This document shows, piece by piece, positions 859-28,453 of a stretch of DNA of 44,743 nucleotides (positions within the stretch are counted from its first letter, which is position 1; every line of letters begins with the position of its first letter). The notes below the pieces were generated by a model. That model did not search any database. It was not told the DNA's origin and saw only the letters and a list, made by a program, of their open reading frames with translations. The stretch covers positions 1-44,743 of the forward strand of contig JAIVJJ010000015.1 of the NCBI GenBank assembly GCA_020200095.1, read 5' to 3'. Source of the stretch: Acidobacteriota bacterium. Its GTDB lineage: Bacteria; Acidobacteriota; Blastocatellia; Pyrinomonadales; Pyrinomonadaceae. The position numbers were made by a program, and so were the translations under genes.

Positions 859-1470
859 TTAGCGCAATGGGCTGACAATCGTCGCGCCGCCGCCTAATGC
901 AATTCTATTATTATCGGTTCTCGCAGCTAAAACGAGACCAACGATTGCGCCGCCGACAACAAGCGCATAAAGCAATCCCGCTGAACCGCCGTCGTTATCA
1001 TCGTCATCATCGTCTTGAGTTTGTCCGCCAGTTTGTCCGCTAGTTGCCGATTCGCCGGCATTGAGCTTAAGCGTTTTTCCGCCGGTTGTTTTAACATTGA
1101 CAGCATCAGCTGCACTTAAAACATTGAGACGACCAGCAATTAAATCACCGTTAATCCCTTTATCATCAAATGACAAGGCTAAAGTCGTATTCGGAGCAAG
1201 CTCAATTTTACCAATTTTTCCTAAATTGATAATTGCGCTGGCATCTTCCGGCGTTACAACTGTACTGGAAGAAAAAACCGAACGACCGCTTTGTGCCATT
1301 TCACCGTTGATTTTAACAAAGGCAGTCTGTCCGTCAATATTTTTTCCGCTAACTAAAAGTTCTCCGGCTACTCTTTCAGAACTTGCCAGAGCAACCATCG
1401 AATAAGTCGCCATTGTAGCAACAACTAAGCACATAGAAAGTGCTTTACGAATCCATAATTTCCTATTCAT
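859..1470 (-). CDS. Secreted FecR-like domain protein, paralogue 2
   Basis: A 203-residue protein starting MNRKLW. This start is chosen over one seven codons upstream because GAGGAG lies 4-9 nt before this ATG. A signal peptide ends near ALASSERV. The FecR-like beta region shares SAIINLGKIGKIEL with its neighbour. An acidic linker of consecutive Asp residues (about 151-158) is followed by a Gly/Ala/Val hydrophobic helix and a short tail ending TIVSPLR. The arrangement suggests an exported domain tethered by its C-terminal helix. It is co-oriented with paralogue 1 with an intergenic gap of about 95 nt, so the two may be co-transcribed. No enzymatic motif is visible and the function is unknown. 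Confidence 0.7.
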   Translation of the reverse strand: MNRKLWIRKALSMCLVVATMATYSMVALASSERVAGELLVSGKNIDGQTAFVKINGEMAQSGRSVFSSSTVVTPEDASAIINLGKIGKIELAPNTTLALSFDDKGINGDLIAGRLNVLSAADAVNVKTTGGKTLKLNAGESATSGQTGGQTQDDDDDDNDGGSAGLLYALVVGGAIVGLVLAARTDNNRIALGGGATIVSPLR

Positions 1471-2029
1471 ATTTCTCCTCTTGTATCGCATTGAATCAAT
1501 TGTTCAAAAAATTAAACCTTCCAATCTTTTACACGAATTGTTTATTGATGTCAATAAAAATTACTTGGAAAAGGTAAAAAATTATCGGTAAAGTTTGATA
1601 GTTTTAGGGATGCGGTAAATTAACCGGAATTCTAATATATCAAAACACTTATACCATATTTTTACTTCGTATTGAAAGTGATGAATTCAAAAATAAATTT
1701 TCTGCTGTTGAGCATCTGTTCCCGTCGTTAAATAACTTACCAAAAGAATTTAACTTTAACAAATAAGGCTCGATTATAAAAGCTCTTGGTATATTTTACA
1801 ATTATTCTTATTGTACCGCGATTAAAATCAAATCTCAAATTTCTATTAAATAGATTTTTATCGCCAATCTAGAATTCCGTAAAGTTAAAATTTACTATTT
1901 GTTCGACGACTAAAAATATACTCTTTTTGTAAAAATAAAATGATTACACGCTTTTTCGGTTAAATATACGTTTAATTATTTTGCTGAAAGTAAACTTCTG
2001 TTTTAATTTGTGAGAACTTAGACGAGTAA
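1471..2029. other. AT-rich intergenic region, no gene seen
   Basis: This stretch of about 560 bases has stops in all frames and is very AT-rich, with several TATAAT-like words. It must contain the promoter of the FecR-like pair. I see no tRNA, repeat or long hairpin that I can support. Confidence 0.5.
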
Positions 2030-2152
2030 ATGCAAGAAATCATTTTAGCTTGTGATTTGAACAGCACAAATTTATGGATGGCGGCAGTTTCATCAGACGG
2101 AAAAATACTGCGTCGTTTGAAGATCGGAACTCCGAGTTTGAAAAATTTTTAG
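2030..2152 (+). pseudogene. N-terminal relic of a ROK-family sugar kinase
   Basis: Forty codons from ATG to TAG read MQEIILACDLNSTNLWMAAV, then a segment ending ILRRLKIGTP. This matches the start of ROK family kinases/regulators, where the ATP-binding motif is DLGGTN or DLGGTK followed by a strand and KxxxPTP. Here the two glycines are replaced by Asn-Ser and the frame ends after 40 residues, with no ROK sequence following before rimP. The most likely reading is a degraded gene fragment upstream of the rimP operon. The identification rests on a short stretch, so it is moderate. Confidence 0.5.
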
Positions 2153-2228
2153 GGTTAATTAATAACTTACTCAATTTAAAATATTTGTATTTAAACATTA
2201 AATTAATGTTGAGTCATTAATACGCCGC

Positions 2229-27763: not shown

Positions 27764-28453
27764 ATGGATGCTGAACAAGAGAAAGTAGCTTTGGATAAAG
27801 AAATCCGCTATCACGTCTACGATTATGTTATGCGTGAAGGAGTACCTCCAACCATAACAGAAACATCGTCTGCTCTGGCACGCTCGCCGGATGAGGTTAG
27901 AACTTCCTTTCAGCGTCTTGCTGATGAACACATCTTTGTCTTGCAGAAAGGTAATGGTGAGATTCTGATGGCGAACCCATTCTCAGCCGTGCCAACGCCT
28001 TTCATTGTTAAAGTGAGGAACCAGTCTTACTATGGTAATTGCATTTGGGATGCTATGGGCATACCTGCAATGCTGAAGCAGGATGCCACTATAGAGGCTT
28101 CATGTGGCTGTTGTAGCACAGCAATGAGTTTGAAGGTTACGAACGGTTCGCTTGAAGAGGCGCGTGGGTTAGCGCATTTTGCCATTCCTGCGGCACATTG
28201 GTGGGATGACATAGTTTTCAATTGAAAGACGATGCTACTCTTCTGGTCAGAAGAGCATGTTGAGAAGTGGTGTCAGGACTGGAATCTGCCGCGAGGTGAG
28301 ATTATCCCTTTGGACAAGTGCAATCGGTTGGCGCAGGCATGGTACAGCCCTGACCGCAGAGAGCCGGAATGGCGAAGGCGAAGCGTTGACGAAGCAGAAG
28401 CATTATTCTCTGAACTTGGCTTTACATCACCATTCTGGCGGTTGCCGCGCTGA
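27764..28453 (+). CDS. Organomercurial-lyase (MerB)-like protein, candidate selenoprotein
   Basis: MerB cleaves carbon-mercury bonds using Cys96, Asp99 and Cys159. This frame encodes an N-terminal winged-helix part (about 15-70), then YGNCIWDAMGIPAM with Cys93 and Asp96 in the same Cys-x2-Asp spacing, and ASCGCCSTAMSLKV. At codon 154 (28223-28225) there is TGA, followed in frame by KTMLLFWSEEHVEKWC and a MerB-like C-terminus ending 28453. Codon 154 falls 61 residues after Cys93, close to the 63 between the MerB catalytic cysteines, and aligns without gaps with Cys159. A SECIS-like hairpin starts a few bases downstream. Read through, the protein has 229 residues, as MerB homologues do. The alternative is a nonsense mutation in a Cys codon. 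No merR, merT or merA is nearby. Confidence 0.75.
28226..28258 (+). promoter_or_regulatory. SECIS-like stem-loop after the in-frame TGA
   Basis: CTCTTCT (28238-28244) pairs perfectly with AGAAGAG (28249-28255) around a GGTC loop, and ATG (28232-28234) can pair with CAT (28256-28258) across a 3-nt bulge. The loop begins 19 nt after the TGA. In E. coli fdhF the GGUC-bearing loop sits at nearly the same distance from its UGA (18 nt, from memory). It lies inside coding sequence, as bacterial SECIS elements do. Confidence 0.6.

Follow-up and report, generated by a model that had tools for sequence, protein, structure and literature searches.

The window, i.e., the whole stretch of DNA that was analyzed (44,743 nucleotides of a contig from an acidobacterial soil bacterium), contains a gene with a predicted product related to the organomercurial lyase MerB, the reading frame of which is broken only by the TGA at codon 154 and is closed by another TGA at codon 230 (Table 1). 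The ATG of the gene is preceded by a Shine-Dalgarno-like AGGTGA. In the initial annotation the gene had been described as a candidate selenocysteine (Sec)-containing organomercurial lyase, and its structural details were reproduced in our analysis: the single frame with TGA154 as its lone interruption, Cys93-x2-Asp96 before this codon and KTMLLFWSEEHVEKWC after it, as well as the 7-bp stem with the GGTC loop starting 19 nt past the TGA. The flanks of codon 154 indeed align with MerB without gaps; the same could not be maintained, however, for the whole stretch between Cys93 and codon 154, as the spacing is 61 positions vs 63 in MerB.

Table 1. Features of the putative Sec-MerB gene of the window.
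Feature	Position	Strand	Details or basis
Sec-MerB gene	27764..28453	+	229 residues on decoding of TGA154 as Sec; regular terminal TGA, 28451-28453
TGA codon 154, predicted Sec at the MerB Cys159 position	28223..28225	+	alignments
Cys93-Ile-Trp-Asp96, equivalent to MerB Cys96-x2-Asp99	28040..28051	+	no variation in A2, the alignment of 15 Sec-type members
Predicted bacterial SECIS hairpin: stem CTCTTCT/AGAAGAG, loop GGTC at 28245-28248	28238..28255	+	comparative evidence
Coding region 3' of the TGA	28226..28450	+	purifying selection, dN/dS about 0.06-0.11

The read-through product matched the Pfam MerB family (PF03243) with an E-value of 1.9e-28 (99.4 bits vs the curated cut-off of 27), the match covering residues 73-194, i.e., both sides of TGA154. 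All 11 PDB structures that matched the protein at E<=0.001 were those of MerB or MerB2, and its AlphaFold model had a mean pLDDT of 96. Codon 154 was aligned with the catalytic Cys of MerB2 (5C17) in the phmmer search against PDB, and in alignment A1 with Cys159, the first Cys of FCC/FCH in the canonical MerBs L026 and L027 from the same phylum; in the latter alignment Cys93 and Asp96 corresponded to Cys96 and Asp99 of MerB. Cys96, Asp99 and Cys159 of MerB have roles in catalysis (PMC4525700, PMC8261052). At position 159, where Cys is expected in a classical MerB, the window gene has TGA, i.e., presumably Sec. Among the 15 Sec-type members, Cys93, Trp95, Asp96 and codon 154 were invariant. Invariant residues downstream of the TGA are F160, W193, F224 and W225. 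The earlier proposal that this TGA is read as Sec at a catalytic position is thereby supported by the alignments with MerB and MerB2 and by the MerB-fold model; comparison of sequences gives good support both to the predicted Sec decoding and to the catalytic position, and the gene may be regarded as a real selenoprotein gene of the MerB type.

By folding energy the hairpin downstream of TGA154 was unremarkable, with z values of -0.7 to -1.7 against shuffled sequences. Since folding energy alone is a weak indicator, tests based on synonymous codons and covariation were applied. In the per-gene synonymous shuffle, p<=0.05 was reached in just 34 of 95 genes, the low yield being due to the conserved LFRSEE peptide, which favours a hairpin by itself; the informative test for a SECIS element is therefore codon usage pooled across genes. 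In the pooled data, Arg161 is encoded by CGG in 87 of 89 cases (27% elsewhere in the same genes), Ser162 by TCG in 86 of 92 (36% elsewhere) and Glu163 by GAA in 70 of 91 (35% elsewhere). The GGTC tetraloop is located at the same distance in 90 of the 95 TGA genes, and each of the six loop-proximal pairs is formed in 88-95 of them, the fifth pair varying between C-G, G-C and T-A. In the window gene, as in its three nearest relatives, residue 161 is Trp (TGG) and Ser162 is encoded by TCA, so that the closing pair changes from C-G to T-A together with the amino acid; TCA is present in all four genes with TGG at Trp161, and the pair is thus restored by a compensatory change. In the actinobacterial Cys-encoding genes L155 and L156, the FRSEE peptide and the hairpin are both lost. 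Taken together, the comparative evidence for the putative role of the hairpin as a SECIS element is convincing.

When 85,000 species genomes were scanned with two patterns, 233 relatives were obtained, of which the best 80 were inspected. All of these 80 have TGA exactly at codon 154, and scattered stops, which the initial annotation had regarded as an argument against Sec, were not encountered among them. This uniformity was not forced by the method, as one of the two patterns omits codon 154 and the ranking penalises stops. Cys was found at the corresponding position in canonical MerB, MerB2 and the relatives L040, L045, L155 and L156. According to the record titles, the best 80 relatives belong to more than ten phyla: Acidobacteriota, Chloroflexota, Actinomycetota, Gemmatimonadota, Planctomycetota, Verrucomicrobiota, Calditrichota, KSB1, Myxococcota, Eremiobacterota/Vulcanimicrobiota, Marinimicrobia/Fidelibacterota and Pseudomonadota. 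The three relatives closest to the window gene show 83-87% identity; in comparison with them, dN/dS past the TGA is similar to that of the preceding part and the differences fall at third codon positions; judging by these substitutions, the coding region past TGA154 is under purifying selection.

The genome containing the window is a draft of 4.32 Mb in 464 contigs with 86.6% completeness. It encodes tRNA-Sec (72 bits; anticodon TCA according to ARAGORN) and a full-length SelB (a 650-residue frame, 402 bits), the joint absence of which had been named in the initial annotation as evidence against Sec decoding. The search for the remaining components suggested there recovered SelD (335 bits, contig C361) and, in two pieces, SelA. 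The gene selD has an in-frame TGA at the CAGU motif and is itself a selenoprotein gene. The pieces of SelA (L023 and L024) are located on the tRNA-Sec contig (C72, 37698-38763) with a frame change between them and with profile positions 92-198 (~107 residues) absent; in this draft genome the break reflects either an error of assembly or a genuine lesion of the gene. The same genome encodes a MerB paralogue (L001), 49% identical to the window protein, in which the corresponding codon is likewise TGA and the GGTC hairpin is also present.

Within the phylum Acidobacteriota, the Pfam MerB match was detected in 29 of 396 genomes, and the acidobacterial members of the window-like branch have TGA at codon 154 in all cases except L043. 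In this member of the Sec branch (genome G167) the Sec codon is replaced by TGG (Trp) and Cys93 by Ser; with both residues lost, it is probably a pseudoenzyme. The profile search of 396 genomes of Actinomycetota revealed the TGA form in 18 and TGC in two (L155, L156). Nocardioides sp. zg-1230, a cultured organism with a named non-MAG record, has two equally scoring Sec-MerB copies (L133/L149; contigs C4 and C8 of G445) and might be suited to laboratory study. The tRNA-Sec was found above the curated cut-off in 42 of 50 non-acidobacterial hosts (two borderline at 48-49 bits) and, within Actinomycetota, in 16 of 18 Sec-MerB hosts vs 187 of 378 other genomes (Fisher p 0.001). Incompleteness of MAGs possibly accounts for the eight non-acidobacterial and two actinobacterial hosts in which it was not detected. 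In Acidobacteriota SelB is near-universal (36 of 37 genomes), the exception (G352) carrying a Cys version, and its presence is therefore uninformative there on the link between Sec-MerB and the Sec machinery.

In the tree of 102 proteins, calculated with codon 154 masked, the 93 Sec rows appeared as one broad group with tentative deep forks. The Cys-containing A-P-C-x-W-C type (L040, L045) is nested in the Sec branch with support of 97/94, which suggests a change from Sec to Cys in this type together with that from Asp96 to Cys. Rows of different phyla are interleaved in the tree, and of the genomes listed for its family the window's genome alone has a Sec-MerB gene; these two facts suggest horizontal spread of the gene.

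Two other readings of TGA154 have to be considered. If the codon were a true stop, only a 153-residue MerB fragment would be produced, or the gene would be dead. TGA does terminate genes of this genome in the ordinary way (it is the last codon in 7 of the 24 window genes that were checked) and SelA appears broken, but the identical TGA in the best 80 relatives from more than ten phyla, the purifying selection and the four invariant residues past the codon, and the conserved SECIS make this reading very improbable. Even less credible is the translation of the codon as another amino acid, e.g., Trp, by means of a changed code or read-through. It could draw on the TGG at codon 154 of L043, whereas normal window genes and the Sec-MerB gene itself end in TGA, related branches without Sec at this site usually have Cys there, and a dedicated tRNA-Sec and SelB are encoded in the genome. 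Considering these facts, decoding of UGA154 as Sec appears nearly certain from the sequence comparisons.

MerB-like proteins with Sec are not new in principle. SaoL (NF040728) was described as a MerB-like organometallic lyase with one predicted Sec in the motif CU, encoded in the SAO operon (PMC9312934, PMC13188914). The window protein shares with SaoL, which is known here via reviews and the NCBIfam model, the homology to MerB, one predicted Sec and the proposed organometal lyase function, but it scored only 51.8 bits vs the cut-off of 140 with the SaoL model, and the match stops at residue 133, short of Sec. None of the 38 family members came near this cut-off (best E 1.6e-17), and in the window branch the C-U motif of SaoL (PMC13188914) corresponds to F-N-U or F-T-U. 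In contrast to SaoL with its SAO operon, the window gene has no conserved neighbourhood and none of its ten window neighbours matched the Sao models. Furthermore, no NCBIfam cut-off was passed by any of the 38 members, and no NCBIfam model names the branch. We consider the window branch as a Sec MerB relative outside SaoL, possibly mentioned elsewhere in the literature.

With canonical MerB (E. coli R831b type; PDB 3F0O, 3F2F) the window protein has in common the fold, the equivalents of Cys96 and Asp99, and the position of the second catalytic Cys; with MerB2 of Bacillus (PDB 5C17), in which Asp99 is Ser, it shares the fold, the Cys96 equivalent and the position of the second catalytic Cys. 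It differs from both by Sec in place of Cys159, an extended C-terminal region and the lack of a mer operon, and its identity to them in the structural alignment is 15-20%. Its scores with the NCBI MerB equivalogs are likewise below the cut-offs (45.6 bits vs 193 for NF009710 and 40.7 vs 200 for NF033555). The A-P-C-x-W-C relatives (L040, L045, and also L169 and L170) are of similar length, but in them Cys occupies both the Sec position and that of Asp96/Asp99. Plasmids of Paraburkholderia and Sphingomonas carry genes of this type, the one from Sphingomonas being annotated as merB; the plasmid search revealed the Cys type only, and not the Sec type.

The neighbours of the gene in the window include those for an S41 peptidase, a SnoaL-like protein, a two-component system and others, with no mer genes among the neighbours scanned. 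Neighbourhood clustering over 80 loci did not reveal a recurrent mer or SAO operon, the sole recurrent neighbours, named by reading their sequences, being ABC-type ATPases at seven loci (four within 2.5 kb) and an EamA-like transporter at four. The two largest neighbour clusters consisted of MerB halves or antisense frames. MerA above the cut-off was absent from the window's genome and from 20 of 22 hosts and was found in two of the 22; the MerA candidates in the window's genome were rejected as generic flavoprotein disulphide reductases only. For such an orphan gene, without mer genes or conserved neighbours, a putative role in mercury conversion is deduced from homology and the active site, and the substrate would be organomercury or another organometal.

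A MerB-fold selenoprotein could act on a substrate other than organomercury, i.e., on an organometal of tin, lead, arsenic, selenium or tellurium, or have a redox or metal-binding role. We give this possibility somewhat less than an even chance. It agrees with the absence of mer neighbours and of MerA from most hosts, MerB without MerA being hard to explain (Christakis et al., 2021, PMC8261052), and with the assignment of SaoL, the known Sec MerB relative, to an organometal system and not to mer operons (PMC13188914). On the other hand, the full triad is kept, with invariant C93 and D96, which fits Hg-C protonolysis, and L043, the one member in which Sec is lost (to Trp), has also lost Cys93 (to Ser), as expected if both residues act together.

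The best explanation overall is a selenoprotein belonging to the MerB (alkylmercury lyase) superfamily, which would perform organometal chemistry at Cys93/Asp96/Sec154; we estimate the probability of this explanation as roughly 0.85. A MerB-type fold carrying this triad is highly probable, organometal lyase activity is, by analogy, rather probable, and for mercury as the main substrate the odds are about even. In the proposed mechanism, SelB and Sec-tRNA-Sec would be placed by the GGTC-loop hairpin just past UGA154, resulting in insertion of Sec, and in the folded protein the triad Cys93/Asp96/Sec154 would replace Cys96/Asp99/Cys159 of MerB. By analogy with MerB, the thiolate and the selenolate would hold the metal atom of the organometallic substrate, most likely an organomercurial such as methylmercury, Asp96 would act as the proton shuttle and the carbon group would be released, the metal staying between S and Se until its removal by cell thiols or another carrier. 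Both the enzymatic chemistry and the metal hand-off we infer from this analogy. A broader proposal seems rather doubtful at present: that the phylum-spanning Sec MerB branch works without MerA, Cys/Sec demethylating methylmercury or another organometal, that the strong Hg-Se bond helps to sequester the metal, and that the branches with two Sec residues possess all-selenium active sites.

The MerB census of 2021 was screened for Cys159 and listed no MerB genomes for Acidobacteria or Planctomycetes (PMC8261052, Table 1). Relatives of MerB encoded with UGA are present in these two phyla and also in Chloroflexota, Gemmatimonadota, Verrucomicrobiota, Calditrichota, Actinomycetota and others. A census requiring Cys would have missed the Sec form, and standard gene callers stop at UGA, ahead of the second catalytic residue. 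If methylmercury is the substrate, the known range of potential demethylators of soils and sediments would be larger, and mercury cycling would depend in part on the availability of selenium. For the contribution of selenium to the cleavage of metal-carbon bonds, a natural comparison is offered by the branches with Sec, with Cys and with two Sec residues.

Two types of relatives with two TGAs were observed. In the acidobacterial type, AUAED ... GYU (L048, L049, L050 and L051, the same proteins as L134-L139 and L142; about 1450-2200, minus strand), all seven full-length genes have TGAs at both catalytic Cys positions, i.e., in U-x2-D and at the Cys159 equivalent, with hairpins after both of them. 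The proteins of this type match Pfam MerB with E-values of 1e-10 to 1e-12; no NCBIfam cut-off was passed by the two-TGA proteins. The structure prediction obtained for a two-Sec protein was of poor quality (pLDDT 51, four rows) and was discarded. The actinobacterial type, LUGMEAL ... FNU, has longer frames and is represented by L163, L164 and L165 from three genomes (G654, G664 and G773). The same GGTC hairpin is located past the second TGA in both types, and the frame of L164 runs on into an apparent AAA-type ATPase region.
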